Positions 4,791 through 64,000 of a stretch of 64,000 nt of DNA are shown piece after piece. The DNA is from Rhizopus arrhizus. Taxonomy: Eukaryota > Mucoromycota > Mucoromycetes > Mucorales > Rhizopodaceae. The translations under genes and the position numbers were made by a program. Each line of letters starts with the position of its first letter. Positions within the stretch are counted from its first letter, which is position 1. The DNA is taken from positions 1,137,663 to 1,201,662 of the forward strand of contig JAKZZE010000018.1 of assembly GCA_024220505.1 (NCBI GenBank). Direction: 5' to 3'. Below the pieces are notes generated by a model that was given only the letters and a program-made list of their open reading frames with translations, did no database searches and had not been told where the DNA came from.

Positions 4791-4921
4791 GTATAATGGT
4801 AATAGTTATTAAGAAAAAGGTAGAAACAAAAATAAAGAAACAGTGTAGGTACTTTTTGAGACTGATCTTTGTTTCAGTTTAAGTTAAAGTAAAAATTATT
4901 CTAATTGAAGGCAGGTATTTA
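4791..4921. other. unassigned AT-rich stretch between LINE-A and Tc1-A
   Basis: The remnant after truncated LINE-A and before the TA target site of Tc1-A (TA at 4920-4921). Before Tc1-A inserted it was contiguous with the sequence now starting at 18285. Nothing recognisable. Confidence 0.4.
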
Positions 4922-5516
4922 CAGTAGGTCAAAAAATTGCTGCAAGGAATCCATTTTTCTCAATTTTTGTAGCGTACATCCTGCCACAATGGTACAAACT
5001 GCCTCTGTTTCCACATAGTAGATTTCCTACATGTCTTGAAAAGTCCGAAAGAGTTTAAGCCCTATTGGATAAGTATTGAAGGAAGTATGAGGCGCGCAAT
5101 TTGAAAATTTGAAAAAACGAAAATTTGAACGCAATGAATTTATTTATTAATATTTAGTTGATCCTCCTTTTCTATTAATAACCTCTTGAATTCTTACCGG
5201 CATGCTATCGATGTACCTTTGGCAAAGTTCTTTATCAAATCCATTCCATGCTTTTTGTACTCGTTCCCAAAGCTCATCCGTATTCTTTGCTCTACGTTCG
5301 TAACAGCTGAGCTTTAACTTCAGCTGATGCCATACATGTTCTATTGGATTTAAGTCCGGACTCTGAGCTGGCCAATCGTTAATATAACTCTATTGGTGAC
5401 TATTCAACCAGGCTACTGTAGATTTTATCTTGTGCTTTGGGTCATTATCATGCTGAAAGTAAATGTAGGACCAGTCGGAATTATAGTGCTCCATAGTATC
5501 ACGAAGCGTGGTGTTC

Positions 5517-5529
5517 AAATTATGCTGGT
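5517..5529 (+). repeat. target-site duplication of LINE-B, left copy
   Basis: AAATTATGCTGGT, 13 bp, recurs at 11025-11037 straight after the LINE-B poly(A) tail. It belongs to the Tc1-A sequence. Confidence 0.9.
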
Positions 5530-5532
5530 GGC

Positions 5533-6984: not shown

Positions 6985-7016
6985 TTTTAATGTTATTACA
7001 CAATAACATTAAAATT
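6983..7016 (+). other. perfect 15-bp hairpin spanning the LINE-B ORF2 start
   Basis: AATTTTAATGTTATT (6983-6997) pairs with AATAACATTAAAATT (7002-7016) around a 4-nt loop (ACAC). The ORF1 stop (TAA 6982-6984) touches its 5' foot and the ORF2 ATG (6990-6992) is inside the 5' arm. LINE-A has a non-homologous hairpin at the same junction, which suggests selection for structure rather than sequence. Confidence 0.65.
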
Positions 7017-43336: not shown

Positions 43337-43419
43337 TGAAGGGAGTGGGATTCGAACCCACGCCTCCGAAGAGAACACGACCTTAACGTGTCGCCTTAGA
43401 CCAACTCGGCCATCCCTCC
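43337..43419 (-). tRNA. tRNA-Leu(AAG)
   Basis: An 83-nt type II tRNA including the discriminator A. Acceptor GGAGGGA pairs with TCCCTTC. The D-arm region is GGCCGAGTTGGTCTAAGGC. Anticodon stem ACACG/CGTGT holds the loop TTAAGGT, giving anticodon AAG (reads CUU). There is a long variable arm, and the T-arm is GTGGG-TTCGAAT-CCCAC. No intron. An oligo-T terminator follows. Its 5' end is 56 bp from the first CACTG of element E4. Confidence 0.97.
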
Positions 43420-43475
43420 GATGGTTTTGTGACAGGTGACTGGTAATTGTGGGCAATAAACTCAACTCGGTTCGC
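43420..43475 (-). promoter_or_regulatory. 56-bp tRNA 5' flank between tRNA-Leu and E4
   Basis: The only native upstream sequence left to this tRNA. Its length equals that at 63910-63965. Both flanks share GAGTTTA at the same offset (bases 13-19 from the element edge) but are otherwise divergent. This is the region where TFIIIB would sit on a tRNA gene (family knowledge). Confidence 0.7.
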
Positions 43476-44777
43476 CACTGCACCCAATCACCGTTATCCA
43501 AGTTGATAAAGTTGATCTTTTTTGATAGTGGTAATTCTATTAAATGAGTGAGAACTCGGATTTAAATGTTAGAAAGCTGATTTTTATATCAGAAGAAAGC
43601 TTGAAAAAAATAGATTGTAAATCTATAAAAATAATCAAAAGTATATAATATGTTTGTTGAATAAAAAGACATTGTATTTTTTAAAAAAATAAATAATTTT
43701 CTGTTGTGCTACATGATGCCATACAAGATTACAAATTGGGAAGACTATGCTTTTTCAACTTCAGTGCAATATTTTTTAACTTCAACAAAGATCGAAAACA
43801 CAGTTCTATTGGCCTACAAGCTCGGAAATCCAAGTGATTGAGTCGTGACGTTTTCTTTTCAAGCATTCTTCGGCTCTCATGTCGTATTTTACAAAAAAAA
43901 AACTTTGTTTAATACAAAAGGAGATTTATTTTGGTTACTAATGAACAAAAGGAAAAAAAAAAAAAAAGAAAGAGTAAAGAGGTACATATGAATAAGAGGG
44001 ATGAAACTCTTATATAAGTGCATAATATCACTATAATAATAAGTATAAAAGTATGTGTTTATAAATTAGAACAAAAAAAAAAGAATGTGAATATAGTAGA
44101 AAGTTTAAAAGATTGAATAAAATATATAAAAAAAAGAAGGATTCTTTTGGCTCTAAAGAAGTTAAACTTGTTTTAAAGCTGAAAAAGATATGTTTTAAAT
44201 AGTAAGATCACGGCATAAAAAAGACAGAGTATTTTTGATAATCAATTTTATTTTTTGAGAGTAAAGAAAAAAAAGGCGGCAACGGAATGAATGTCTATTA
44301 TGCTACACGTCTTGAGATTTCTATGAAAAGGTTAAAAAACAAAAGAAAAAGTATATTGTTACTGAGTGCTTTTGAAAAAAAAAAAAAGTTGCAATGTTGA
44401 AATTGTAAAAAAAAAAAAAAAAAAAAAAAATTACATTCCCAGCATTGACATTACAAAAGGAATCTCCATTCAATGTATTGTTTAAACTTGAATAAAAAAA
44501 AAGGAGCGTTTTAAATTTGGGTTTTAAAAAAAAAGTACTTTAGAAATTTTTTCATTAAAAAAAAAATAAAAGTGGACTAAATATGACGAAGGTGGAAAGC
44601 ATTAAGCAGAAATCTAAAATAAGATTCAAAGACCACAATACAAACGGCAAACTGATTTTATCTGTAACCAAATCTAGAATGAAACAAAGGTAAAAAAAAA
44701 AAATTAATTTAAAGATCTAAACACCGCTTTCATTTTTTTTTTTGTTTTATTTATTTCACAAGTTTTTTATTTTTTTT

Positions 44778-46118
44778 TTAAAACAGCAAGTTGATTTCAT
44801 CCAACTCTATTTCACCACCAAAAGCCCAAGCGATACTCTCTTCAGTTATATTTTCTTTTTTGATGAAGTCAGGAACAGGCAACGAGCATTTTCTTTGTAT
44901 ACGAGGAAGAAATTGGATGCTGCTATTTCCAGTTCTTTGCCTCTTTGCCTTGTCACTTGCTATCTGATCATCCAACAGCTTAAAAAATTCGGTACACTGA
45001 ATATTGGATAATTAGTTGATTGCGCTTAAAAAGATATTAATTAAACTTACAGTAGGTGATCTGTACTTTGGTACGCGAACTTCAAAATAATCAACTGTTT
45101 TCTTGCACAAGACAGACATACGTTCCTTTTCAGTAAAAGGAGCCATTCTATCTGGATTTTGCTCCAGAAGAATTTCCTCCACCTTATCGATTGTTTCATT
45201 GTTGTACATGTCTTCTTCTTCAGACATGTATTGCTGTTGAAGCAAATACTCACAGTTTGGATAGCTTTCGTAAACGCCTTGATCCTTGTACTGCTCGTAT
45301 ATAGCCTTACGAGCTCTTGTTTTCTAAAAAAACAAAGTTAGTTATGCGATTACAATATTTTATGTGGCACTTACAGCGCTTCTACGGGTGACTTTTGCTG
45401 CTTTTCGTTTTCTTATAAATTCTTCAACTGGATCTTCCTCTTCACCTGTGGATATTCCCGCCTTCTTTGTATAATATTGGCGCTCGAGGTACTTGCGCAA
45501 ATCGCGGTTGTTGGTATTTTTATATGAATAATGGCTATTCACATAATCCTGCAGCAATTTAAATACTCTTTGATTTTCAGCAGACTTCAAAGGCTTTTCA
45601 AGAACATATTGAGATGATAGTGGCAGGTTGTTGTAGTGATTTCTCACAGCATCCTATATTTCAGAGAAAAGCGATTAGTATATTTGTTTAAAATTGAATT
45701 TTAATGTTCTTACTTTGACAGCAGTAGCAATCGGCTTTGCGCCTTTGCCTGATTCTGCTTCAAGCTCATCGTATGCTTCTTTGAGCTTGCTGTATGCTAC
45801 TTGCAAGGCCTGCTTTTCCTCTTGCTCTTTTCGAAGCATCTCTTTCAAACCATCGTTTTCTTTTCTTAGCTCCATATAAATGGAAAAAGAAAGAGATACT
45901 TCATCAGTCTCCATGTCTTCGGCTTGGCGCATTCGCTTCTGAACATGGGTCATGGGAGGAAAACCAGGCCTAGGATAGGCAAAGCTATCTGGAATGGCAT
46001 CGCTTGAAGCAAGCTCAGGAACAACAGCACGAGAAGGAACAGCGATTGGTTGCCCAACAGAGTTAGAGCCACGAGCATTGGCAGGAGCAGGGTTGAATTG
46101 AATACCACGATCAGACAT
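44778..46118 (-). CDS. E4 orphan protein, four exons, 391 residues
   Basis: Exons 45714-46118, 45375-45653, 45051-45323 and 44778-44996, all in phase 0. GT-AG introns of 60, 51 and 54 bp. Joined, they give an uninterrupted frame from MSDRGIQFNPAPANARG to ..DEINLLF. Residues 1-75 are Pro/Ala-rich and disordered. About 82-130 form a coiled coil (..LRKENDGLKEML..LKEAYDELEAE). Exon 2 carries a compact helical region (..QRVFKLLQDYVNSHYSYKN..NRDLRKYLERQYY..). Exon 3 is acidic, exon 4 basic then acidic. No catalytic motif or zinc site recognised. A paralogue lies in E1 (50798-53150), with a first exon of exactly the same length (405 nt), and a relic in E3 (56079). Conservation in this transposon family suggests an accessory DNA-binding or targeting factor; that is inference. 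Confidence 0.8.
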
Positions 46119-46259
46119 ATTGTTATAAGAGTAATTTGAAATAAAGATAAGTGAGCTTGGCATCAAAATTGAATCTTTCTTAAATATCATCGAGTTTACA
46201 ATGAAACTCAGTCTTAGTATAGCAAAAAAAAAATATAAAAAGATTTCCTTTTCGAAATT

Positions 46260-46775
46260 GTGTTCCTTTTTTTTTCTTTCTGTTCAGCAATTTCCTTTTT
46301 CAACATCGCTCCGGTTATCGCAAGGTAAGTAAAAAAAAGAAAAAAAAAAGAAAAGAAAAAGAAAAAAAGAAAACTTTAGTTCTAACATGCTGTAGTAGAC
46401 ATTCATACATGTATCCATGGCTGCTGTAGTTCCTTTGGTTCTTTGCATATCTGCTCAAAAGGTAAATACATTCATATCTTTCAGTAATCTTTATTAAAAG
46501 TAAAATTAACTTCCTTTAGTTTGTAGCTGAAGCTTTATGGATGTCTTGGCATCCTGTTTTGTTAGCAAAAGAGCTTTAAGGTAAATAAATCAAGTATATC
46601 ATGGTTTACTTTTATTAATATTTTATTTTATACAACTTTAGACGCTTTGGCTTCTGTTGCTCCCTGTTGTCTATAACCTGTTATAGCTTTGGATTCTTTT
46701 TACTACTGGCGCGCTTTTCTTTATGGGCTTTATTTACTACACTCTTTTGTTTGCTGCTTCTATGGTCAAGGTAAG
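46260..46775 (+). ncRNA. divergent chain of short exons in E4 (putative spliced transcript)
   Basis: On the plus strand, divergent from the orphan gene, GT-AG introns at 46325-46379, 46462-46519 and 46581-46641 separate exons 46380-46461, 46520-46580 and 46642-46770, followed by another GTAAG donor at 46771. The donor and its exon end (GTCAAG|GTAAG) are conserved in inverted E3 near 55470. Only a very short peptide could be coded (start ATG 46420), so a non-coding spliced RNA is the more cautious reading. Expression is unproven. Confidence 0.45.
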
Positions 46776-47358
46776 CGTATTTTCCTTTTTTTTTGCATCT
46801 ACCGTTTGAATTTTTTTTATTTGATCGTTTCCATGGATCCCCTGCTCGCTTTCCCTCCTTCCCCTACCCTTTTGTAATACTGTAATGAACCAATAATATA
46901 TAATCAATATGGCAATAAAGCCCAAAAATAAATGAATAAAACTACATTTTTGACCAATAATACCGTGTTTTAAGCCTATTTTATTTCCCAATATAAATCA
47001 TTCAAAGCTAAATATAGTCATAATAAGCCAATAAGGAAGCATTGCTAAAGAGCAACAGACGAATAAGGAAGCATTAGGAAAAGGTAACAAGCCAATAAAG
47101 AAGTGGTATTAAAGAGAAACGCAAGCATGTAAGGTCCAATAGAAAGGCATCATGCTTGTGTTTCATCGTTAAAAGAATAATGAAGCGGCGCGTTGCCAAA
47201 CAGTGATACTTGGTTATCGCACTGAAATAGTTAACATTCAACGTAAACAGGTTCAACTTGGCATACTGCAATAACGCTGCATTAAATATGATAAATCCCG
47301 ATTAACTGAGGTATATCTGAGGGCTATCATACTTTGTAAATAACAATTATGTGCAGTG

Positions 47359-47362
47359 GCGC
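47359..47362. other. E4/E1 junction, two CACTG ends back to back
   Basis: ..GTGCAGTG-GCGC-CACTGCAAAT..: only four bases separate the two element ends, making a 14-bp palindrome CAGTGGCGCCACTG. Confidence 0.85.
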
Positions 47363-47363
47363 C

Positions 47364-48593
47364 ACTGCAAATAATCGTTCCCATTAGGTACCGGATTGCG
47401 CAAGATTGCTCTTCTTTTGGGTAACGGATAGTTATTTTTTTTCCTGAAAAAAATTAAATCTTGCTGTATTGATCATTTTCGAATTTTGAAAAAAGATTTA
47501 GATGCGAAAAAAATAAAGAAATTTAACGATGTTATTATTTTTTTTGTAGGGTAAGTATTCATGAAGTTATTCATGTTTTTAAAAAAATGTCTTTTTTTAC
47601 AAATGATCTTTTTTTGGAAAGCGTATTTCTCTCCATTGTTTAAAGACCGATATTTTCTTTTTTTTATTTTTGAGGGCAAAATGCGGAAATCAAAAGCATC
47701 ATGCGATTATTTTGTTCAGGAGAATACATATTAGGAAGGCAATCTGTGATTTTTAGCGTAGCTCATTAGAAATGTGTAACAGGGCGTAACAAAATAGTTG
47801 CGTCTAGTAAAAAAAAAAAAAGAAGCTGAAAAATAAAAAAAAGAGCATAGCAATAAAAGGTTCCTTATTCAAATGAAAACAATAATCTAACAGCAAATAT
47901 ACTTTATAGAAATGCAAATGCTTTTATGTTATAACAAAAGAATACTTGTATATTCTAAGAAGAAAGAAGCTTTGCTCACATTTTATTACAAGGCAGTTAT
48001 AATTGACAAATACAAGCAAAAGTTTTTGCTTTTCAAGTAAATAGATTGCTTTATTATTTTTTATGACAGATAATATAATAGAATATATGTTTTTAAACTT
48101 ATACTAGTTCATTACTTACTTTGTGTTTGCACATGATGTAATTTGCAATTAGCCATTAGCCATTAGAAATGTTAGCAGTGGCAGCTTCCTTTACTAAAAA
48201 GAGATTTTCAGCAGCAAGCAGCAATATAAGTGATATTCTTATAGCTTTATCATGTTGGAAAGAAAAGCTTCTCTCATGAGGTTAATGTTCATCATCCGAA
48301 TGTGTCCCATTAGGAATTTCTAATGTAAAAAAAAAAAAAAAAAGAAACCGATATTAGACTTGGTTGTTGTTATTTTTTTTATAAACTTACATTTGACCAA
48401 TACTTGAGTTTTCTTTTGTATCTTTTGTATCTTGGGCATCTCGTGCATTCCATGAAACAAAACAAGGGAAAAAAAAAAGGTTACTTTAAGCACCGACTTT
48501 GTTTTTTAAATTTAACGTTTTTTTTTTTTTATCAGGCATATTTTCTCTTTCTACCTATTTTCTTTACTATTTCCAAATTTAAAAAATATAAAC
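47364..48593. other. E1 left subterminal region
   Basis: About 1.2 kb without convincing genes. AT-rich, with A/T runs and a short CATTAGC-type repeat near 48155-48170. It is conserved, inverted, in E2 (61560-61100 and 63909-63210), so it probably holds cis sequences for transposition and the transposase promoter. The short open frame at 47473-47679 overlaps conserved A/T-rich DNA and I do not call it. Confidence 0.6.
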
Positions 48594-50870
48594 ATGAACA
48601 ACTTCAACGCCACCAAAATTATTTGCACCTGTTCTGAATGCAGCAACCATCCCAATGGATTTAGAATGCTTGCAAAGAGAACTGTAAGAGGCCATGAACT
48701 TATCGACAGAGTTAGAAATAGAGGTTTTTGTTTTATTTTTTAATAAAAATCCAAATGTGCTAATGTTCAAAAAAAAAAAAAAACTAGAATCAAGAAGAGT
48801 ATCTGAAGCTAACGACAACGGGGAGGAAACTCTCGAATACTCATCAACCATTCCTGAGCCAGCAACTGAAGGTATATTTTTAATCAACAAAGTATTTAAT
48901 ATACGAAAGGATTTATTTATTGAAATGTATTTTGCAACTTGTTAGACGAAATGAATGTTGACGAAGAGGAGGGAATGAGTAATGAAGAACAGCTTCGTCA
49001 CCTTTTGCTGTTGTTCATTGTGCTTTTTCAAGCAAAGCACCTCTCGGTGAAAGCCGGTGAAGACTTGTTGGCCTTTCTTTCCTTCTTTGTCCGTTCTCTT
49101 GGCCATGGTATGGAGATTCCTACAAAGATCTCTACTGCCCGTACTATGGTCAATTATTCCACTGCCAGCAATGGTTTGTCCCGTTTTCTTGTTTGCTCTG
49201 CCTGTCGAAGCGTTTACACTTCTGGAAGCTTGCATTCTCGCTCCTGTGGTTATGTACGCTTCCCTAACAACCCTTATCGACAAGCACAACCATGTGGAAA
49301 TGCTCTTTTTGTAGGCAGCAGTTTAAAGCCAGTGCTTGAGTATCCCTACAACTCAATTACTGAGACTTTAAAAAAGTTCTTTATGCGACCCAGTTTTGAA
49401 CAACAAATTGAGCAATGGAGAAGAAGATCAGTTGATGAGGATGTCATGTTCGACATATATGATGGCAGAGTTTGGAATCAGCTTGTGGACTCAAACGGGC
49501 AAATTTTTACCAGTCAACCAAGATCATTGATGGTATCCTTGAATGTGGATTGGTTCCAGCCAAGTGACAACATGAAGCATTCTAGTGGTGCCATTTACCT
49601 TGCAATTAACAATCTGCCAAGAAATACACGTATGAAGTTTTCCAACATCGTTTTGGCAGGTGTTATTCCTGGACCACATGAGCCCAATGATGATCAAATC
49701 CAAAACTTCTTGAAGCCATTGGTAGATGAATTGCTTGTACTGTACAATGGTGTTATAATGCCCACTTACCAAAATCCTAACGGAGAAGTAGTTCGTGTGG
49801 CATTGATGTCCATCAATTGTGATATGCCTGCAGCAAGAAAAGTAGCTGGATACATGGGCGCCATGGCTACTAAAGCATGTAACAAGTGCTCAACTGCTTT
49901 TGGCCGTCTATCAACTGGTACCAGGTCTTCAAAGCCAAACTTTTCTGATTTCAACGATGAAAACTGGGTGCAAAGAACGTGGGAACAGCAAAGATTTGAT
50001 GCGTATGACTGGTTGACTGCTACGCACAAGGCACAACAAGAAGAAAAACAGGCAAGTTCTGGTACAAAGTGGAGTGAAGTACATCGACTTCCTTACTTTG
50101 ATGTGGTGAGATATGTAACTGTCGATCCAATGCATAACTTGTTTCTTGGAACACCCAAAAAAATGATTGAAGTCTGGCAGGATTTTGGCTTGCTTGTTTC
50201 TACTGATTTTCCAGCAATGGCAGCAGAGTCGACCACTATCATCGTTCCTCAGCAATATGCTAAGCTATCTGAAGGTATGTAATACTGCTTGATCGTGTTT
50301 ATATATACATGGAATAAAGCTTTATTTCATGGTGGAACAAAATACTTATTTTTTTTCTTTTTTTTTAAAAAAAAAATAGGAAAAATCTCTGGTGCTTTTG
50401 CTAATATGAAATCAGATGAGTGGAGAACTTGGGTTGTTGTGCTGTCACCTTTCCTTCTCAAACAAAAACTGGCAGGTGAACATTTTACAAACTGGTTGCG
50501 GTATGTCGATGCTGTAAAGTTGGTCACTGGCCCTTCCATCACAGTAGAAGACATAGATACCGCACATCTATTGATGAAAAACTTTGGCAAGACCTGTGTC
50601 GAGCTGTATGGTGAATCTATGCCCACTCCAAATATGCATATGCATCTCCATTTGAAAGAAAGCTTCCTGGACTTTGGTCCATCATACTCTTTTTGGCTTT
50701 ATGGCTTTGAACGTCTTAATGGCGATATGAAACATATAAACATCAATTTTAAGACTGGATTTGAAACAACTTATGCTACTATGTTCATTCAAAATGTTCA
50801 CACACAAGATCTAGTATATTCTTTACATTCCTTTATCAATTCAACAAACGAAGACATACTCCTACTAATT
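48594..50870 (+). CDS. E1 transposase, Tnp2 family, four exons (3' end cut by Tc1-F)
   Basis: Exons 48594-48723, 48788-48871, 48946-50274 and 50380 onward. GT-AG introns of 64, 74 and 105 bp, each with matching phase 1. The N-terminus MNNFNATKIICTCSECSNHP has the CxC..C zinc-type start common in this family. A C-rich block follows (CSACRSVYTSGSLHSRSCGY). Catalytic residues expected for the RNase H-like fold: Asp about 272 (SLNVDWFQP), Asp about 362 (INCDMPAARK, followed by CNKCS) and Glu about 624 (LYGFERLNGDM). The signature VDPMHNLFLGTPKK lies at about 463-476. About 680 residues remain. If Tc1-F is removed the frame stays open 45 more codons, but these overlap the convergent gene, so the true C-terminus is uncertain. 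Acts in the nucleus on CACTG ends (family knowledge). Confidence 0.88.
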
Positions 50871-50871
50871 A

Positions 50872-52507
50872 CAGTGGGTCAAAAAACTGCACCAACCTAA
50901 CCTAATTTTTCGGAAATAAGAGCATAGGTCTGTCAGTTTTATAGCAAACATTATGAAACTTGAACCAAACAAATTTAATACTATTATGATTTATTGACAA
51001 AAATTTCAAAGTCAGAAGCTGAGTATACACTTAAAGCGAGCCCAGAAAAAAGCGGAGGTCGGTTGGTGCAGTTTTTTGACTTTTAAAATAAAAGTGGGTT
51101 TGACACTATATGCCCGGACTGAGGCCATTCCGGCAGATATAAATTAGTCTGTGGAGTATGTAGTCACACTGGGGATCTTAAAATAAACTTTTTTGCAATT
51201 ATTTTCCTTTTTTTTCTTTCCTACTTTACCCAAACGTATCATACATCGCCAGTGTCTATCCATCATTAGAAATGCCCAAAACGGTTCCATTCGATGTTCA
51301 AAACAGTATCAAACCACTATTGGAAGATAGCGTTGACCCCACAGTCATTGGGAAACGAGTTTGAGTGCATAGAAATACCGTTAATAGGTACGCAAATAAC
51401 TGGATGCATAATAGAATACGTAAAAGCGGAGATAAATCGAGCATTATGGCAAAATCAGCGCGTCGATACATCAAGAGACAAGTACTCACGGGTTACTGGA
51501 AGACTGCCAAGGATGTTCAAATGAAGTTGGAGGAGCTTGGACACCCTATGTCGTATCAATCGGCCATTAATGTTTTACATTCAGTTGAAATTTATGCTGA
51601 GATCAAAAAGAAGAAGCCATTATTGACTGAAAAGCATAAGAAGGCTCGATTGACATGGGCAAAAAAGCATCAATACTGGACAGTACATGATTGGCGACGT
51701 GTGATATTTTCTGGTGAGACCAAAATTAACATTTGGGGCTCAGATGGTTGCAAATATTATTGGAAGAAAAAATGCGATCGTTTACAGCCCCACCATATCG
51801 ACGTTACTGTGAAGCATGGAGGCGGCGGTCTCATGTTATGGGGTTGTATAACCAGCGCACGACCTGGATACGCATGTCAGGTCTATGATGGTACCATGAA
51901 TTCAGAGCTATACCAAGAAATTCTTGCTACAAGTCTGAAGGACACCATGAAGCACTATGGTCTGAATTGGAAACCATCGGTATTTCAGCACGACAATGAT
52001 CGTAAACATCGATCAAAGTTCACAACGCAATGAATGAAAGATAGGGGCATGGTTTACATTGACGATTGACCATCACAAAGTCCAGATCTTAATCCTGTTG
52101 AACATGTATGGCATCATTTGAAGTTAAAGCTGAGCATGTATGATAATAGGGCGACCAGCATCCATGAACTGCGGGAAAGAGCCGAAAATGAATGGAATTC
52201 GTTTACTAAGAAACAATGCATCAAATATATAGACAATTTGCCCGCCAGAATACAAGCAGTATTAGCAGAAAAGGGTGGATCCACTCGATTTTAAGAAAGT
52301 CAAAAAACTGCACCAACCGACCTCCGCTTTTTTCTGGGCTCGCTTTAAGTGTATACTCAGCTTCTGACTTTGAAATTTTTGTCAATAAATCATAATAGTA
52401 TTAAATTTGTTTGGTTCAAGTTTCATAATGTTTGCTATAAAACTGACAGACCTATGCTCTTATTTCCGAAAAATTAGGTTAGGTTGGTGCAGTTTTTTGA
52501 CCCACTG
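50872..52507 (+). mobile_element. Tc1-F (long-TIR Tc1/mariner, 1636 bp), inactive
   Basis: TA on both sides and terminal motif GTCAAAAAACTGCACCAACC. Each TIR of about 210 bp ends internally with a perfect inverted copy of that 20-mer (inner copies near 51061-51081 and 52299-52318). The transposase is mutated. Confidence 0.95.
51272..52294 (+). pseudogene. Tc1-F transposase, three stops and a catalytic change
   Basis: 340 codons plus stop in one frame, from MPKTVPFDVQNSIKPLLEDS to ..KGGSTRF. In-frame stops lie after ..VIGKRV (51362), after ..SKFTTQ (52031) and in place of Trp before PSQSPDLNPVE (near 52067). The first catalytic Asp is Gly (FSGETKIN), and the second block reads DNDRKH where family members have DNDPKH. 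Cannot be active. Confidence 0.92.
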
Positions 52508-52668
52508 TACTTGTGAGGTGGTGAGCAAATCAAAACGATGGTGCTTTCTGGCTTGCTCATACAACAATGCCTTGACTTTTCTGTTATTTTTATGGGCGAA
52601 GGTAACGTCCAAGTCAAATTCGCTTCTGCGACCAACAACGTAATCACGGTAGTATTCTGCTAAATAGC
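52508..52668 (-). other. rest of E1 orphan-paralogue exon 2
   Basis: Covered by the split gene above; no separate gene. The plus-strand open frame here is its antisense shadow. Confidence 0.6.
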
Positions 52669-53469
52669 TCTATATGACACAGAAAGGTATAAAATATAGT
52701 TATTAAATTACAATTACTAATTTAATAAATATGTCCTAAACTTACACTGCATTCTTTTTTGGCCGCGTCGACCTCAGCTTCTGAAGCTCGGTGTTGCTGC
52801 TGCTGTTGCTGTTCCTGCTGCTGTTGCTGTTGCTGCAGCAATTGTTGGAATTGCTGTATCTGAGCAGCTATTATCTCTGGTGCGGCACCAGAGGCTGCTC
52901 TGATGGCTTCAGTACCAACAGGGCTCTCCAAGCGAGGAGCTGTAAAGCTACTGAAGCCTGCAACAGGAACAGAAGCGAAAACAGGAGCAGGAGCAAGAGT
53001 AGGAGCAGGAGCAGGAGTAGGAGCAGGAGCAGGAGCAGGAGCAGAAACAGGAACAACGGTGGATGATGATCCAGCAATGCTCACGGAAATTCTTGCTCTC
53101 TTGGGAGCATTGCTGGGAACGTTGATGGGAGTGGCAGCACGACGAGACATTTTTTAAAAGAAATTATATAAAAAGGAAGAAAAAAAAAAAAAAAAAAAAA
53201 AAACAGGAGTACAAAATAAATTGAAGATGAATACAAAACAAGGTGATACTCATTTATTTTACAAAAAAGCGAAGAAAAAAAAAGCCTTTGGTGTTAAAGA
53301 TATTACATTTAAATAAAAAAAAAAAGAAGAAAAAGTTTAAACTGTTTATGAATAGTCTCTCTGAATATTTCAATAGTTAAGCAGTATTAAAGAAGACTTA
53401 TTTTTAATCGATAGTGGATAACTGTAACACTGGTAAAATGAGGCTATAAAAAAAGTACTTTTTTTTTTT

Positions 53470-53786
53470 CCTTTTTTTTTTCTTTTTTTTTAAAACAAAA
53501 CATTCTCTCTAAAAGGTAAGTTCTTAATATTATATGTACTCTATTATTGTTCTAATGGTACTTGTACTTTAGTAAAATTGTATTGGTTGATTTCTTGATG
53601 TTTCAAATGGTCTTTATAAAGTCTTTTTCCCAGGATTATAGTTGCTTCTTCTTTTACTTGTTAGTATAAGCTTGGCTGGTGGTTTTTTTTTTTTTCTTTT
53701 TTTTTCTCATGGTCCATCTAAAGCAAGGTACTATTACTTTTACTATATACTCGATAACTAATAATTATTATAGAGGAGTACTGCTT

Positions 53787-53820
<34 letters not shown>

Positions 53821-54260
53821 GTTGGTAAAGCTTAGCAAGGTTTTTCTCTTAGCCCATCTAAAGAAAGGTACTATCACTTTTATTATATATACTCAATAGC
53901 TAATAATTATTATAGATATCTGCTGCTTTTTTTACTTGTGAGTATACGCTTAGCTAGTTTTCTTCCCATGGTCTATCTAAAGAAAGGTACTATTACTTTT
54001 ACTACATATACACGATAGCTAATAATTGTCATAGATGAATGCTGCTTTGCTTTGGCCTCTTCTATCTCTTTTCTGTCTTTGCTTTGGTTCTGAAGTACTG
54101 ATGTCTTTTTTCTTTTGCTTTAAGTGCCCCAGTCCTTTAATCCTTGAATCCTTGAGCTTGGCTTTTTTTTTTTTTTTTTTTGAGAACTTCTTGAGTTCCA
54201 CGAGATTAATTGATGTATTTTTAGATTAGATGCTGCTATTCTGGTGACATTAGGTAAGTC
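53470..54260 (+). ncRNA. tandem exon-intron cassettes in E1 (putative spliced transcript)
   Basis: Four or more intron-like units run on the plus strand, divergent from the gene at 53150. Introns: 53516-53572, then three similar ones at 53728-53773, 53868-53915 and 53987-54034 (46-48 bp). Each of these three starts GTACTATNACTTTTA, contains CTAATAATT as a branch-like site, and ends TAG. The exons between are duplicated too (..CATCTAAAGAAAG|GT). A further donor is at 54254. T runs of variable length inside exons rule out a conserved protein. E2 keeps the splice sites in inverse orientation (60430-60720). Confidence 0.5.
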
Positions 54261-54389
54261 AAGTACACTTTTAAAACGCTACAAGCAAAGAAATACCATG
54301 TATTATTATTATTTTATTCAAATAAAAAAAAAGCTATTTTTTATAAACAAAATCCCTATTTTTTGTATATATAAAGCAATATTTATTGC

Positions 54390-54520
54390 AATATGAATGG
54401 TCAATAAAGAAGTATATAAAGCTATATAAGTGGTCAACAAAGAAGTATATAAGGCAATATGAGTGGTCAATAAAGAAGTATATAAGGCAATATGAGTGGT
54501 TTATAAAAGAGCAAAAAGAC
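54390..54520 (-). repeat. minisatellite in E1, about 33-bp unit
   Basis: Units like AATGAGTGGTCAATAAAGAAGTATATAAGGC (shown in part: GTATATAAGGCAATATGAGT) repeated about four times. The E2 counterpart at 58240-58393 continues at 60033-60080 after Tc1-C3. Confidence 0.8.
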
Positions 54521-54843
54521 AAATAAAGTAGTGTTTTACAAAGCGTGATTGGTTGCCAAGCACCATTAGATATCAAATTGATAATAAACAAGAGCCACAA
54601 CGTAACTGATGAAAGGTCCACCTTGCAAGATCAGTTAACGAAAAAGTCTCCCAACAGTCTCCTGTGTTGGCCACAAATCTTGAACCATCAATTAACCAAA
54701 GGACAAACAATAACTTACACGATTTGTGGCAGAGACAGGAGGCTGTGCGTGGATAAATCTCTTACCTGATTGTACACGAATGTAAATTATTTCGCAAGAT
54801 TGTTAAACGATTTGTTACCCAATTTACACTATTATTTGCAGTG

Positions 54844-54846
54844 CGA
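54844..54846. other. E1/E3 junction
   Basis: ..TTGCAGTG-CGA-CACTGCACAT..: three bases between two CACTG ends. Confidence 0.85.
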
Positions 54847-56078
54847 CACTGCACATAATTGCTATATATATAGCATTATATTTGACAGAATATAATGAGA
54901 TATTTCGGGTTTACGTCAATATATTTACAGATTCCATAAAATATGTACTTCGTATATTTTGCTCGAAATGTTAAGATATGTATATAAAATACCGTGTTAC
55001 TTTTGGTGACGCGCCGCTTCATTGTTCTTTCTACGATGATACACAAACATAACGCTTTTCCATTGGACCTTACATGCTTGCGTTTCTCTTTGATGCTATT
55101 TCTTTATTGGCTTATAGCCTTTTAGCAAAGCTTCCTTATAGGTCTATTTCTCTTTAATATTACTTCTTTATTGGCTTATTGCCTTTTCACAATACTTTCT
55201 TATTGGTTTATTATGATTATATATAGCTCTGGATGATTTGTATTAGGAAAAAAATAGGCTTAAAATACAGTATTATTGGTCAAAAATGTGGTTTTATTCA
55301 TTTATTTTTGGGCTCTTTTGCCATATTGATTATATATTATTGGTTCATTTGATTATTAAATATGATTTAAAAAAAAGAGGGGGGGGGCAGGGAATTTATG
55401 GGAATAATGAAACATCATCTTTAAACGGTAGATACAAAAAAAAAATTTCTTTTTTCAAAATTGCACTTACCTTGACCTCAGAAGCATCAAACAATAGAAT
55501 ATAGCAGATAAATCAGGCAAAACAAACAAATACAATGAAGCAGCGTCAAAAGAGATCAAAAGCAATATAAAGATGAAGACAGTAGACTAAGCAGGAGGAA
55601 AGTAGTCAAAGCTAGATAAAATGAAAGATTAATTACAGTGAAACATGATGTACCCGATTTTCTTACATTAAACCTCTTTAAAAACCAGAAGACGATGCCA
55701 AACTATTCAAACAGCTTCAGAATCAAGCCTAAAAAACTAAATTTGATTGTTAATAAAGATAATGAAGGTTTAAAAGCATACTTACCACATAAACAGATAC
55801 AGAAAGACTCAAGAACTTATGATAGCCATGAGCATATCTATAAATCTTTAATAAAGAACATTAGAAAAAAAAAATTTAAAAAAAGAGAGACTTACCTGGG
55901 ATAACTAATCAAAAAAAAGAAAGAAAGAAAAGAAAAGATTCATCTGAGACATCAATCCTTTTATAGATTTTTTGACTTGAATAGAACTGAGTTTACAGTT
56001 GAACGCAATAGTATTTAAGGTGTGTCTAGCTTCAATGTTAAGTTTCTTTACTTTTCCTTCAAAGTACCTTATATCAAT

Positions 56079-56204
56079 ATGTCTGACCGTATTATCGAAT
56101 TCAACCCTGCACCTGTCAATGCTCGTAATCCTAGCTCTACCGATATGAACAATACATCAAAGGTGATCATTGCAGAGGTCTCATATTTATTTATAGAGAT
56201 ATAG
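56079..56204 (+). pseudogene. E3 relic of the orphan gene, first exon
   Basis: From ATG 56079: MSDRIIEFNPAPVNARN, matching MSDRGIQFNPAPANARG of E4, then it diverges and stops at 56204. The coiled-coil part and later exons are absent. It shows the orphan gene is an old component of this family. Confidence 0.8.
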
Positions 56205-57960
56205 TTTTACTGTAATTCAGTAGTATTAAATTTATCTATGAGTATTTACTTTTTGTATAAATACAACAAAAACTTTTATACAATTGATACGTCGCTTTAT
56301 GAACTCCTTATATACAGCTCCAAAATCAAACAATAAGAATCTTTAATACTCAGTTTGAAGTTCCAGAGGAAGAACAAGTTTCAATTGATGTTGTTACATT
56401 ACCGACATTATACAAGTGCCGCTAAACAAGAATAAATTTTTCATCGAGTAAAATCAATTCAACTTTTGTGATAAGATATTTGAATCTTTTCCCATCATAT
56501 TCAGTATTATATTGATTAGTTTACATAAGTGCACTACTTTACAAAAAAGAAATGATGGAGTTTAGTTAAGTGTACTGCGGTAATCCAAAAAAAAGAAAAA
56601 AAAAAGGCAAAGTGATGATATTCTTAATCAAAGATAGGACAAAAAGCTCATAAGTAAAAGCATAGATATTGAATAATAAATTGTAATTAGCACACAAAGG
56701 TAAATGAAGTAAAGCATTTTTAGTTGACGTCTCAGCTAGATTTTTTTTTTCAAAGTACTTAATCAAAAAAAAAATTACAATTTCAGTGCAATTTCTAAAA
56801 CCGCTTTCTATAACCTAAAGTAAGTCTCTGTATGCTCTATGAATAAAACGAAGATCCTGTAAGTAGGTTTGTTCAACTTAAGACAGTTTGTAAAAGTAAG
56901 TATTCTTTTGCAATGTCACTTTTAACATTCTCTTTTTTTAACATGCAAGTAATCCCAACATTGCTTTTTTCACATGCAAGTAATTCCGACATTGCAATTC
57001 TCTAATTTCAACATTACTTTTTCTTTTTTTCTAAATCTATCAAAAGGTTCTATTTTATTTCATCAACAATAACTCTTTCTTATAGTCTCTGTTATAAGGA
57101 ATCTCAAGACATGTAAATTCACTTGATGTTAATATTGTTGTTTCTTTTTGCAATTAAAAATAAAAATGATTACCAAACCCATACCCTTCTATTTTCTGCT
57201 TAGCTTTAGTCCTTTAAACATTGCACTATCATCTTTGATAGATGCTATTTTCCTTACGGTCAAAAAAAGAAATACCATTTTCTTTTTTCTTTCTTCTTTT
57301 TTTTTTTCCTTTTTCTTTGTTCATTTTTGTTTCTAGCTTTTATCTTTTATTTAACGTTTATATTTATTACTTCCCTATAGACTATTCTTTTATTTCAATT
57401 GTAGATAATTAATATTACACTTCGTTGGATAAAAGCATTAAACTCATGTTCCCTTTCACAATTTAAGTAATGTTGCTCTCTATCTTTTCATTATAAACGT
57501 ACAAAATTATTTTTTCTGGGTAGATGTACTAAGTACTTTCTTTTTTTTTGCAGTATAGCAAATCAAGTATGCTTGGCAAGAGGACGTCGCAGCTCAAGCA
57601 GTTAAACTTCCGAGCTCACAGTCCAATGGATTTACGTTATTGACCTTTGTTGAAATTAAAAAATCATACACTGAATTTGAAAACTTTTCATTTTCCCAAT
57701 TTATAAGTTTGCATGGATTCATGTAGTACAAAAGAGACAAAAAATTTTTTACAAGAAATACAATTTCTTTTTATTCAATATACAGATTATAAACATATAC
57801 ATATCGTTATAGATATAACATATATTTTTTTCTAGGTTTTTTTTTGATACAAATATTATATCTCTATCCTGCAAATTCAAATTTGTATTATTTTATTCGA
57901 AGTTCAACTGTTAAAACACCCGAAGTATAATAATTTAGAATATAGGGTTTGGGTGCAGTG
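56205..57960. other. E3 right part, no gene
   Basis: AT-rich with many homopolymer runs. The repeated phrase CATGCAAGTAATNCC..CATTGC near 56943-56995 echoes E4 at about 44390-44450. Nothing coding. Confidence 0.5.
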
Positions 57961-57964
57961 GGCC
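57961..57964. other. E3/E2 junction
   Basis: ..GGTGCAGTG-GGCC-CACTGCAAAT..: four bases between ends. GCC here matches GCC after the right end of E2 (63910-63912), a likely 3-bp duplication for E2. Confidence 0.8.
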
Positions 57965-58393
57965 CACTGCAAATAATTGGAGATATTAAACGTAGTTTTT
58001 TAGCATAAATGAGCGCAACTACGCGAAGTTTAACGCAAATCCGCGGAATTTTATTGCTCTTTTAAACGATTTTCGATGCAGTTCAGTAAGCGTTAAATAA
58101 CTTTTACGCAAGCAAGAGGAGGCCATTTAGTGTTCTTTTACCGAACCATTTTTTAAGTTTCAATTAATACCAGTCAACGTTTGAGCAACGAATGATACGT
58201 TTTAAAACATTACTCTATATGTCTTTTTGTTCTTTTATCGACCGCTCATATTGCCTTATATACTTCTTCATCGAACACTCATATTGCCTTATATACTTCT
58301 TTGTTGACCACTTATATTACCTTATATATTTCTTTATAAACCACTCATATTGCTTTATAGACTTCTTTATGAACCACTCATATAGCTTATATA

Positions 58394-60030
58394 CAGTAGG
58401 TGAAAAAATACGAGCAACCTCTGTTCGATTTGTCTTCATATCTTTTTATTTTCGTGTGTACATTCGCCAGAGCTTTGATATCACACACACTAATTAAGAC
58501 AACAAAGATACATACAATACACTAAAGAGATTGACTCTACTTGAAGTACAAGCTTTTTAAAAAGGGAAAGACAGTCATAAAAAAAGCCAATGATGATTTT
58601 TCAAAATTCGCTATGTTTATTTAATATTTTCTATATCTTCCCTTTGCTTTAAATAGTGCTTCTACTTTGGCTGGCATACTATTGATGTACCCCTTGCAAG
58701 CATTTGCATTGAGTTTATTTCGCTCTACATCCACAAATGGCTAAAGCTTTCTGACACCTCTTTCTCCGACTTCATGTGGTGTCAGATTAAGTTTGAGCTG
58801 ATGCCAAACATGCTTTATATGATTTAAATCCAGACTTTGAGCATACCAATAATTTATATACCTTACACTGATACCGCATACCTATAGAGTTATGAATTTT
58901 AATTTATGCTTTACGCCGCTATCACTCTGAAGGTATACATCGGACGTCTTCAAATAATAGTACTCTAACGTATTCATGTAAATAATGCTAAGTATATGCA
59001 GATAAGTCGTTGAGTTTATGTTACCATCATAAAGCTGACATGTCTAAGCTGGTCCCTGAGCAGGTATGTGACAACACATGTTCATCCTACCACTGCTGTG
59101 CTTTACTGTAATGTCGATGTGATGAGGGAGCAAAATGTCATTTGATACTACCCCATAGTATTTTACTCCATCTGATCACTAGATGCTAATCTTTGCTTCA
59201 GCTGAGAACGCTACTGGTCGTCACTCTTAACTTGACCAGTTGCGATGCCTTTTTGCTCAGGTCATCTGCTTTTTTCAATGATCCTTTTTTAAAAATGCCT
59301 TCTTTTTTTAGCTCTCGGTGGCAGTTTATGGATCTCAGCGCATTTACTCCTGAACGATACATCAACAAGTAACCAAACTTACCCAATTCCCTGAATAACT
59401 CTTTTGCTATTGTCGGATGACCAGTAATGATACGTAACTCGATGTAGTGCTTCATGGCATAAGAGACAATAGTGTGTCTTCCAGCCGACAGATGTGAATT
59501 TCATGGAAAAAGCTTTCTAGCATATCTTTAAACTGTGCGAGAATGAACGTAATATTTATCTGCGATATCCTCTAGCTTCATACTATTTAGTGATATATCT
59601 TTTATTTCTCGATTGCTTTTCCATTGGTATAGATTTAGACATGACGATGAAAAGTAGTGAGAGAAGTTGAGTAAAAAAAAAGAAACCAAGGACTCTTGAA
59701 GCCGCATTTGCTTTTATATGAATACAATAAGGAACACTCACAGTTCCATACAAGTACGCTATATAGCCTTCCAATATGTTCTTTGTTGATTTAAGTGTAA
59801 ACATATGAATACGGTACATAATTTAAGCTGGTCGGAAGTCAAATTTTTAAATTCGGATTCTCATTCCTCTCTCAATTTCCAGCATTGCTACATGAGACCT
59901 TTACTGTTTCAAGACACATGACCCCGAAAATATACCATAGGGGTCTCAAGCCGGTAGTTGGTATGTACCTTTTAGTATAGCGAAAAAAGTCGATTTTGCC
60001 AAAAGGTTGCTCGTATTTTTTCACCTACTG
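58394..60030 (-). mobile_element. Tc1-C copy 3 (defective Tc1/mariner, 1637 bp)
   Basis: Same ends, length and lesions as the copies at 22265 and 27049. TA on both sides, inserted in the E2 minisatellite. The transposase relic begins near 59643 on the minus strand and is readable only in patches (..TIAKELFRELGKFGYLLMYRSGVNALRS..). Confidence 0.95.
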
Positions 60031-61544
60031 TACTTCTTTATTGACCATTCATATTGCAATAAATATTGCTTTATACACATAAAAAAATAGGGATTTTGTT
60101 TATAAAAAATAGCTTTTTTTTATTTAAATAAAATAATAATAATATCTAGTATTTCTTTGCTTGTAGCGTTTTAAAAGTGTACTTGACTTACCTAATGTCA
60201 CCAGAACAGCAGCATCTAATCTAAAAATACATCAATTAATCTCGTGGAACTTTAAAATTTTTCAAAAAAAAAAAAGAAAAAAAAAGCCGAGCTCAAGGAT
60301 TCAGAGACACAAGGATTCAAGGATTCAAGGACTTGGGCAATCAAAGCAAAAGAAAAGACAGAAAAGAGATAGAAGAGGCCAAAGCAAAGCAGCATTCGTC
60401 TATAACATTTATTAGCTATCGTGTATATGTAGTAAAAGTAATAGTACCTTTCTTTAGATAGACCATGGGAAGAAAACTAGCTAAGCGTATACAAAAGACT
60501 AAAAAAGCAGCACGCATCTATAGTAATTATTAGCTATTGAATGTATGTAGTAAAAGTAATAGTACCTTGCTTTAGATAGCCCAGAAGAAACTAGCTAAGC
60601 TTATAGCAATAAGTAAAAGAAGAAGCAATGATAATCCTGGGAAAGAGACTTTGTAAAGACCATTTAAACCATAAAGAAAGCAGCCGATACATCTTTACTA
60701 CAGTAAAAGCACCATTAGAGCTGGAATAGAATATATATAATATTAAGAACTTACCTTTTATAAAAAAGAGAAGAAAAAAAAAAAAAAAAAAGTGCTTTTT
60801 GTAGCCTTATTTTACCAATGTTACACTTATTCAATGTCTATCCACATTAGAAATCAAAAACTGTTGCTTTTCATATAGTTTACATTTAATGGTATCCCAA
60901 AAGATAACTAATACATTGCTTGAGTAAGTTTTATTACTTGAATGCAATATGTTTAGGAGGAAGGTCGTTATTTTATTTTATTTTATTTTTACTTGAAATA
61001 AAAAAAAAAAGTCGGTATCTTAACAAATTATAACAGTAAAACAATATCTTTTTTTTTTCTCCCTTGTTTTGTTTCATGGAATACACTAGATGCCAAAGGC
61101 ACAAAACAAAAAAAAGGGAAGCACAAGCACTGGTCAAATGTAAGCTTATAAAAAAGTAATAACAACCAAGTCTAATGTCGGTTTCTTTTTTTTTTTTTTT
61201 TACATTAGGAATTCCTAATGGGACACATTCGGATGACGAACATGAGCCACATGAGCAAAGTTGTTCGTTTTAACACGATAAAACTATAAGAATATCAAAC
61301 TTATATTACTGCTTGTTGTTAAAAAGCCCTTTTTGATAAAGGAAGTTGGCAATGTTAACAACTCTAATGGCTAATGGCTAATGGCTAATTGCAAATTACA
61401 CCCATGTGCAAACATAAAGTAAGTAATGAACTAATATAAGCTTAAAAACATATATTCTTTTATATTATTTGTCATAAAAAATAATAAAGCACTTTATTTA
61501 CTTGAAAAACAAAAAAAAAACTGTGCTTGTATCTATTAATTATA
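60031..61544. other. E2 middle part
   Basis: Inverse of the E1 short-exon cassettes (60250-60760) and then the left subterminal region (61050-61544). The E1 deletion junction lies at about 60860-61000. No protein gene. Confidence 0.6.
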
Positions 61545-63204
61545 CAGTGAGTTAAAAAACCGTTTCAGTGTTTTTCCTAAATATGGTTTTGCTACCATAA
61601 CTACTGATATACTAAATAAAATGCTACATTTCATACATCATATGAAAGCACTAGTTCTGATGTATAATACAATATAAAAATAGTATTGCTTTTTCAATAT
61701 TTGCTCCCTAAAACTTATAAAATTACTGCAGTCGGTGCACTGAAACGGTTTTTTAACTCCATTAAAAAAAACATAAATACCAATTACAATTATGCAGACT
61801 TCATTTTTAATTTATGCAATACACATAAAGTTAGGGGAAGAGTATAATACTTTGCATTTATTAAAAAAACGAGTATATAAACACGTTATTCTATTAATAG
61901 ACGCGTAACAAATTTCATCCTTTTTCATTTTACATTTTCAACCCAATCTTTATTAAAAATGACTCGCTCCATTTCCCAAGATACTCAAAATGATTTGAGA
62001 GTGCTCTTAGAGTCTGATTTGTCTTATGAAGAGATTGCTAATCGGTTGACTCTCTCTAAAGCCACTGTTCATCGATATTGCAAAAAATGGAATATCCAAA
62101 GACCTGATAACACTGGCGGACGACCTCAGATTTTAACTGAAGCAAGCAAGTCCCTCATGAAGAGAATGGTAATCTTAGGACGATTGAAGTCAGGTGTTGA
62201 GGTCTTCGATTATTTTAAGGCCATTTACCCAAGGTTGACTTACAACACCACCCTAAACGCCTTAAAGAGCCTAGGATTCAAAGCCCGACCAAAAAGAAAG
62301 GTACCTCTTTTGTCAGCAAAACAGAGGAAAGCACGCTTGGAATGGGCACTTGCTCACGGGTACTGGAATACTGACGACTGGAGAAAGGTTATCTTCTCTG
62401 ACGAGTCGAAAATCAACGTTTGGGGCTCTGATGGAGTTGAATTCTATTGGAGTCTACCTGGAAGCCCATTACAGCCTCATCATGTAATCCCAACCGTAAA
62501 ACACGGCGGTGGAAGTGTTATAATGTGGGATTGTATGACTTCTCATGGAGTTGGATATATCTGCGAGATATACGACGGCAGAATGACTGCATCCGATTAC
62601 ATCCATATCCTAAAAACCGAACTGGCAGATACCCTTCATTACTACCGATTAGGAGATGGTGATTTCATCTTTCAGCATGATAACGATCCGAAACACACTG
62701 CCAAGGTAACGACGACTTATCTTATAGAAGAAGCAAAGTACCTAGTATTGCCTTGGCCTTCTCAATCGCCTGACCTGAACCCAATTGAGTACATGTGAAG
62801 ACATTTGAAGTTGAAATTAGCTTTATATAAACAAAGAGCAAGAGGTGTCCATGAACTAAGGGAAAGAATCAAAATTGAATGGGAAACATTTGATAAAGAT
62901 ATTTGCTGTAAATATATTGATGGTATGCCGGCTAGAGTTCAAGCTGTAATAAAAGCTAAGGGTGGAAATACTATATATTAGTATTTTTTACCTAGTTAAA
63001 AAACCGTTTCAGTCATCCCCTTTTTTTAAAATGGCCATTGCTTAAGATGTAGTTCATATATTAAGATGAGATGTACATTGCTTTGTTGCAAAAAAGCCAT
63101 ATAATAACATAATAAAAAAGAACACGTATACTCTAAATATTTCTTTCTAAAAGAGGATAAATGTGTGAGTTTCAATTTTACTGAAACGGTTTTTTAACTC
63201 ACTG
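61545..63204 (+). mobile_element. Tc1-G (long-TIR Tc1/mariner, 1660 bp)
   Basis: TA on both sides. Terminal motif GAGTTAAAAAACCGTTTCAG. TIRs of about 210 bp with inverted inner copies (near 61735-61757 and 62994-63013). The transposase is disabled by one stop only. Confidence 0.95.
61959..62981 (+). pseudogene. Tc1-G transposase, single nonsense codon
   Basis: 341 codons from MTRSISQDTQNDLRVLLESD to ..AKGGNTIY. HTH (..YEEIANRLTLSKATVHRYCKK..), GGRP at about 53, FSDESKINVWG (first Asp), QHDNDPKHTAK (second Asp) and SPDLNPIEYM (Glu), with 35 residues between the last two. An in-frame TGA at 62796-62798 replaces the Trp of NPIEHVW (TGG to TGA). Otherwise complete; recently dead. Confidence 0.94.
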
Positions 63205-63909
63205 TAATTGCCTTGTAACAAGATGTTAACAAAGCTTCTTTTTTTTATTCTTTTTAGAATATACACGTATTCTTTTGTTATAATGTAAAAGCATTTGTAT
63301 TTTTATAAAACATATTTGCTCTTAGATTATTGTTTTCATTTGAATAAGGAACTTTTTATTACTATGCTCTCTTTTTTTTTTTTTTTTTCACTAGGTCTTT
63401 TTTGACTTTGTCTTTTTTTTTTTTTACTTTTAATTCTTCAGCTTCTTTTTTTTCCCAAACGCAACTATTTTGTTACGTTCTGTTACACGCTTCAAATGAA
63501 CTAAGCTAAAGATCACAGACTACCTTCCTAATATGTATTCTTTTGATCAAAATAATCACAATGTGCTTTTGATTTCCGCATTTTGCCCTCAAAAATAAAA
63601 TAAAATAAAATATCGGTCTTTCAACGATAGAGGAGAACAGGCTTTCCAAAAAGAGATTATTTGAAAAAAAAAGACACTTTTTTAAACATGAATAACTCTA
63701 TGAATACTTACACCACAAAAAAAATAATAAAATTGTTAAATTTCTTTATTTTTTTCGCATCTAAATCTTTTTTTAAAATTCAAAAAGGTGCAATACAAAG
63801 CATTTTAATTTTTTTCGTTTATTCAAGGTTATTTAGAACGTTGAAATTTTGATGTTAGCAGTGACTGTCAATGACTGATAACGTTGAAAATCACCAATTA
63901 TTTGCAGTG

Positions 63910-63965
63910 GCCACACAAATCGAGTTTACAATCATAACAACCTCGGAGAGTATCAAAATAGAGGT
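63910..63965 (+). promoter_or_regulatory. 56-bp tRNA 5' flank between E2 and tRNA-Leu
   Basis: Same length as the flank at the other end of the array. Starts with GCC, the putative E2 duplication. Confidence 0.7.
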
Positions 63966-64000
63966 GGAGGGATGGCCGAGTTGGTCTAAGGCGACACGTT
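63966..64000 (+). tRNA. tRNA-Leu(AAG), 5' part, cut by window end
   Basis: The first 35 bases are identical to those of the tRNA at 43337-43419 in opposite orientation. They run from acceptor GGAGGGA through the D-arm to the anticodon stem ACACG and the first two loop bases. Confidence 0.93.

Follow-up and report, generated by a model that had tools for sequence, protein, structure and literature searches.

CACTA/EnSpm-type transposons at a set distance upstream of tRNA genes in Rhizopus arrhizus

Targeting of Pol III genes and the array in the window

Retrotransposons that target Pol III genes are a well-known example of convergent evolution, and here such targeting is met in a DNA transposon superfamily. 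TRE5, whose ORF1 protein binds subunits of TFIIIB, inserts 40–54 bp upstream of tRNA genes, NLTR-B inserts 39–64 bp upstream of them, and Ty3 targets tRNA genes through TFIIIB, with TBP and Brf1 being needed (PMC5911963). For Ty1, an insertion ladder of about 80 bp has been described (PMC3545840). Among DNA transposons, Dada elements insert inside tRNA and snRNA genes (PMC3706591). The Ty3-like LTR elements of Rhizopus oryzae are frequently found together with tRNA genes, and the same report tabulates En/Spn elements without giving their location (PMC2699053). In mainly open-access literature (including PMC7175516, PMC12633428, and PMC13111411), we found no case of a eukaryotic DNA transposon, CACTA or other, that sits upstream of tRNA genes at a fixed distance, in line with a preliminary description of the present locus, which knew of no well-established CACTA/Tnp2 precedent.

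The window, by which we mean the whole 64,000-nucleotide stretch of R. arrhizus DNA that was analysed, has a G+C content of 36%. It contains four elements, joined end to end in the order A(+)-B(+)-A(−)-B(−) between two outward-facing tRNA-Leu genes (Table 1). All four elements have CACTGCA...TGCAGTG termini, the fifth base being G, and the spacers between them are GCGC, CGA, and GGCC. The coordinates bear out the preliminary description of a 20.4-kb CACTG-ended stack closed by outward-facing tRNA-Leu(AAG) genes, the right one being seen for 35 nt because the window stops at the end of contig C10; these 35 nt are identical to the corresponding part of the left tRNA. With CACTG starting at 43476 on the left, and CAGTG ending at 63909 before a tRNA start at 63966 on the right, both gaps measure 56 bp. 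Also as described earlier, the outer elements come from different subfamilies (A and B) and the window's flanks are mostly dissimilar, the two gaps falling in different repeat groups. Group I is present beside other tRNA genes too, and group II is also found beside tRNA-Glu, tRNA-Phe, and tRNA-Lys genes. Two different flank blocks, each of which also stands beside other tRNA isotypes, mean that the flanks of the window are not one duplicated junction.

Table 1. Parts of the array in the window
Feature	Position	Strand	Remarks
tRNA-Leu(AAG), left anchor	43337..43419	−	ARAGORN; Rfam RF00005
Left gap, 56 bp	43420..43475		Outer ~46 bp are flank repeat group I
Element A(+)	43476..47358	+	End a on tRNA side, other end b
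Element B(+)	47363..54843	+	Ends c and d1; Tnp2 reading frame and Tc1/mariner insert
Tnp2 transposase reading frame in B(+)	48951..50282	+	PF02992, E 2.4e-19
Further Tnp2 piece in B(+)	50406..50900	+	Aligns to other Tnp2 copies
Element A(−)	54847..57960	−	Ends b2 (left) and a2 (right)
Element B(−)	57965..63909	−	Ends d (left) and c2 (right, tRNA side); Tc1/mariner insert
Right gap, 56 bp	63910..63965		Flank repeat group II
tRNA-Leu, first 35 nt, right anchor	63966..64000	+	Contig-cut

The PF02992 match in B(+) scored 69.8 bits against a cut-off of 28.6, and the further Tnp2 piece gave no Pfam match of its own above cut-off. Element A(+) of the window aligns to positions 1–1207 and 4393–7065 of a 7,065-bp A copy at another locus (L020), in which the tblastn matches to Tnp2 lie within the segment absent from the window copy. 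Since this Tnp2-matching part is missing, the A element of the window is a deleted form. Tnp2-related frames were found in the full-length A copy and also beside an end of a further type, f (CACTGCAAATAATGTTG), in L022. The Tnp2 pieces of full-length A and of B are about 37–44% identical over their aligned parts. The Tnp2-type (Transposase_21) domain, the terminal inverted CACTA-like ends, and a 3-bp target duplication place these elements in the CACTA/EnSpm superfamily. Seven A copies are 97.7–100% identical among themselves, so that, judged from their sequences, transposition of A looks recent.

Both B elements carry tandem units of 33 bp a few hundred bp inward of their ends (54373–54504 and 58201–58398), which are candidates for the subterminal repeats of CACTA/EnSpm elements. 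The Tc1/mariner insert of B(+) spans 50867–52512 and has perfect inverted repeats of 217 bp, and that of B(−) spans about 61550–63220. In A, a second gene on the minus strand (45015–46190) is apparently multi-exon, has a coiled-coil-like part, and is 97–100% conserved in most of the A copies examined. Searches with parts of this gene and of the second gene of B gave no Pfam match over cut-off, and the product of the A gene is a candidate for a targeting partner protein.

Distance and orientation of element ends relative to tRNA genes

The genome was searched from both sides, and all counts given here come from this one genome, the copy sets being the scored parts of larger candidate sets. On the tRNA side, an Rfam search in which 63 out of 2,878 first-look candidates were scored gave a sample that is blind to transposons because it was chosen by tRNA score, and that is not a random one. 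Sixty of these loci were read up to 400 bp upstream (L143 less far, as its contig ends there). The other three were left out as already in hand; L039 and L045 are occupied, and the tRNA-Lys in L011 is not. TGCAGTG was present 50–60 bp upstream of the tRNA in 20 of the 60 loci, i.e. about a third of the sampled genes are occupied, and was absent from the rest of the 23,687 upstream bases. The opposite orientation, CACTGCA, did not occur in the upstream DNA of these 60 loci. The shorter motif CAGTG occurred 20 times at 50–60 bp and 10 times elsewhere upstream; in 301 base-composition shuffles, the average was 0.31 loci and no shuffle exceeded 2. Downstream, 26 stretches of 200 bases (20 behind occupied tRNAs and 6 behind others) contained a single GCAGTG, immediately behind the tRNA of L190, and no CACTGC.

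Over 41 measured rows from 40 loci (L055 and L093 are one locus), the distance between element and tRNA was on average 56.4 bp, with a standard deviation of 1.8 and a range of 50–60 bp; 56–57 bp was commonest, and ARAGORN and Rfam disagree by one base on some of the tRNA starts. The tRNA genes concerned belong to 11 isotypes as assigned by ARAGORN (Leu, Tyr, Glu, Ala, Thr, Pro, Ser, Gly, Lys, Phe, and Asp). The elements thus show the narrow clustering at one distance from the gene by which Pol III-targeted mobile elements are recognised. The value of exactly 56 bp given in the preliminary description holds for both gaps of the window, whereas genome-wide it is the middle of a 50–60 bp spread.

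Random insertion, followed by selection that keeps copies in harmless places such as the upstream regions of tRNA genes, would agree with tRNA flanks being known, in compact genomes, as safe landing places for mobile elements (PMC5006619). However, selection alone would not be expected to produce a standard deviation of 1.8 bp, a near-fixed orientation, and no ends elsewhere within up to 400 bp upstream, and we regard it as very improbable. Segmental duplication of a single tRNA-plus-element junction seems more improbable still. It would suit L060 and L076, which have near-identical flanks and the same tRNA, and L121 and L122, which are similar on both sides and look like copies of one locus, so that the independent events in the tRNA sample are somewhat fewer than 20. 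As a general explanation, however, it is refuted by the 11 isotypes, by at least six types of tRNA-facing end (a, a2, c, c2, e, and f), and by many unrelated flanks.

On the element side, 80 ends were scored: 40 a ends (window 43476), out of 119 first-look candidates, and 40 c2 ends (window 63909), out of 117. Out of these 80 ends, 20 had an intact tRNA at 54–60 bp, 26 adjoined another CACTA element, and 26 showed a cut, broken, or blocked tRNA locus, including the contig-cut tRNA of the window. For the a end, an intact tRNA was present at 54–60 bp in 12 cases (window counted), a tRNA start of ~15 nt that runs into another repeat in 5, and a flank block known elsewhere from about −55 to −10 of intact tRNA genes in 6; 16 adjoined another CACTA end and one (L042) had no assignable tRNA sign. 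For the c2 end, 8 had an intact tRNA at 54–59 bp, to which the window copy with its contig-cut tRNA is added, 5 had a truncated tRNA, 9 had the flank block only, 10 adjoined another CACTA end, and 7 (L053, L058, L065, L068, L081, L084, and L086) had no assignable tRNA sign. The tRNA start was recognised by eye and from the shared insert in 4 of the 10 truncated cases (L011, L038, L051, and L085), and by an automatic 15-nt match in the others. Hence, among the 54 ends outside arrays, 21 face a tRNA at 54–60 bp, 25 more bear signs of a damaged or blocked tRNA locus, and 8 are without any tRNA-locus sign by the criteria used; these 8, together with the 15 of the 25 that have the flank block only, count against targeting. 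For the b end of A, where 40 of 69 candidates were scored and flanks were taken for 20, neither a tRNA nor a tRNA-proximal block was found in any of these 20 flanks.

Both searches, which found 20 of 60 tRNA genes with an element end and 20 of 80 element ends with a tRNA, peaked near 56 bp upstream, and the random placement relative to tRNA genes that the preliminary description had set against targeting was not seen.

In 19 loci scored against Rfam at the gathering threshold, tRNA was the only family found, with 7 matches; at E up to 1, the only matches in 20 loci were 8 weak ones, all in a palindromic stretch of L070. This long palindrome starts about 50 bp from a c2 end, as if two repeat ends had been joined head to head.

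Stacking, target duplications, and the repeats beside tRNA genes

Among the 20 tRNA-sample loci that are occupied, c is the end facing the gene in 7 cases, f in 6, c2 in 5, and a2 and e in one each. Nineteen of these ends belong to one end class, the exception being e, which elsewhere behaves as a distal end; b, b2, d, and d1 faced the tRNA at none of the 20. Within arrays, a and c2 ends had a neighbour of the distal type (b, b2, d, d1, or e) in 24 out of 26 cases, the b2 match of L047 being weak, and c, against the rule, in the other two. In the b sample, all six neighbours of a b end were proximal (c, a, or a2), one of them across an 8-bp spacer, the other spacers being 0–5 bp. In long loci, b ends meet a (L020 and L021), c (L027), and f (L021 and L022); in L011, b meets e, against the stacking rule.

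Applied to the window, this rule would give two stacks, each anchored by a tRNA gene: one runs A-B inward from the left gene and the other B-A from the right gene, and their tails abut at 54843/54847. The outer flanks are absent at this joint (d1-CGA-b2), which points to a later deletion or rearrangement; the joint could also be an assembly error. Several copies lie close to contig ends (on C10, C6, C38, C32, C13, and C5; e.g. L014, L019, and L025), and stacks may therefore break the assembly or be subtelomeric.

Identical 3-bp flanks were found in 7 out of 11 distinct A copies having both ends in one locus, and no match in L011, the first copy in L021, L027, and L028. In the window, A(+) is flanked by CGC and GCG, which do not match. 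Comparison of filled and empty sites in four flank repeats, the two sides of each comparison being taken from different loci, suggested duplications of ATC, GCC, ATC, and ATA. At 40 occupied sites, we found no target motif beyond extra G at the first three target positions (21, 15, and 18 of 40).

The stretch of ~47 bp that precedes many tRNA genes, of various isotypes, comes from a set of at least six repeat groups, the majority ending in TCA about 9 bp from the tRNA. L119 has such a repeat with no CACTA insert, and L015 has the remainder of the same repeat beyond an array. Judging from their TG...CA ends and their position near tRNA genes, and with no internal domain tied to them, these repeats are probably LTRs of Ty3-like elements; examples are L119, L098, L113, L102, L091, and both gaps of the window. 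That the shared ~47-bp flanks are part of the transposon is ruled out by empty sites (L098, L102, L113, L119, and others): the CACTA elements are inserted inside pre-existing LTR-like repeats beside tRNA genes. Because these repeats fill the last ~47 bp before many tRNA genes, flanks are often common to several loci, which corrects the preliminary description.

This raises the alternative that CACTA elements recognise a DNA sequence within the LTR-like repeats, and that the distance to the tRNA is second-hand, the repeats themselves ending at a fixed distance. Many flanks do fall in shared groups, and insertion points within one group lie only a few bp apart. Against this, at least six unrelated repeat groups are used at an equal tRNA distance and the 40 sites have no target motif in common. 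Occupancy was 11 of 32 with a shared block and 9 of 28 without one; as the criterion is crude and some "unshared" flanks match blocks, this comparison speaks only weakly against a need for the repeats. Overall, we consider recognition of LTR sequence improbable, and favour measurement from the tRNA gene.

A third kind of element using tRNA genes was observed at L011, L030, L037, L038, L041, L051, L071, L072, L077, and L085, where the tRNA gene is cut after about nt 15, in the D arm. The insert is joined at its AT-rich end, followed by a hairpin whose stem varies between copies. By eye it is LINE-like, and a 386-aa frame from the copy in L030 gave no Pfam match.

Proposed mechanism and comparison with known systems

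Given the position of the insertions, their spread and polarity, the 3-bp duplications, the filled and empty sites, and the end-to-end stacking, we hold it highly probable that several subfamilies of CACTA/EnSpm-type cut-and-paste transposons insert upstream of tRNA genes at a distance measured from the gene (mostly 56–57 bp, range 50–60 bp), with one end class inward. We propose that the transposase complex would be held by proteins assembled on the tRNA gene, most likely TFIIIB by analogy with TRE5 and Ty3, and that an asymmetric dock would set the orientation of insertion. As the site would be set by distance from the gene and not by DNA sequence, a new copy would land at the end of the previous one and push the older copy outward, and repeated insertion at the set distance would lead to arrays with spacers of mostly 0–5 bp. 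More broadly, we think it likely that this Tnp2 clade uses a protein ruler, in which asymmetric docking of the transposase complex on the Pol III initiation complex would lead to one-way, sequence-independent insertion at about −56. Since transposase lineages that are only about 40% identical share the habit, the trait would be old within the clade.

The dock could instead be TFIIIC, Pol III itself, or a positioned nucleosome, fixed-distance targeting being retained. Ty1, which relies on Pol III subunits such as Rpc40, offers a precedent (PMC5911963), and the results for other Pol III genes would agree with a dock confined to genes carrying A and B boxes. For 5S, where 47 of 1,059 candidates were scored, we obtained one match, with no CAGTG at 50–60 bp upstream; for U6 (47 of 5,827 scored), 14 matches were over cut-off, several of them pseudogene-like by eye, and none had CAGTG at 50–60 bp. 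One locus of this set, L178, has CAGTG at 65 bp upstream. As some of the 5S and U6 matches may be pseudogenes, the absence of CAGTG is compatible with TFIIIB, and the rule stays limited to tRNA genes. On the other hand, the narrow single peak, free of the ~80-bp ladder of Ty1 (PMC3545840), resembles that of TRE5, which is linked to TFIIIB and lies at 40–54 bp (PMC5911963). A dock other than TFIIIB is possible, though on the unlikely side, and TFIIIB is the one we prefer.

Tight distance and orientation in DNA transposons separate targeting from reverse transcription and provide an independent test of which dock the Pol III initiation complex offers. They also suggest that a DDE transposase of this kind could deliver DNA to defined safe sites in eukaryotes. 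With about a third of the sampled tRNA genes occupied, and with the LTR-like and the third repeat using the same genes, this is a good genome in which to study competition for landing sites.

The elements resemble CACTA/EnSpm (Tnp2) transposons in their PF02992 domain, their CACTG...CAGTG ends, and the 3-bp duplication in 7 out of 11 A copies, and differ from them in inserting at a fixed distance and polarity upstream of tRNA genes. Bacterial Tn7 is also a DNA transposon whose insertions lie beside a gene, one way round and at a constant distance; it serves as an analogy only, its proteins being unrelated and its target selector a dedicated DNA-binding protein. Dada elements are likewise DNA transposons tied to tRNA and snRNA genes, but they insert inside the gene, at a specific sequence, with duplications of 6–7 bp and another transposase (PMC3706591), whereas the insertions described here lie 50–60 bp outside the gene and have a 3-bp duplication. 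LTR retrotransposons of the Ty3/Tj1 type show a similarly narrow targeting of tRNA genes (PMC5911963); they insert near the transcription start, and the CACTA elements about 45 bp farther out. Dictyostelid TRE5 and NLTR-B insert at almost the same place relative to tRNA genes (PMC5911963), but these are non-LTR retrotransposons that use target-primed reverse transcription, whereas the elements of R. arrhizus belong to a DDE-type cut-and-paste family.
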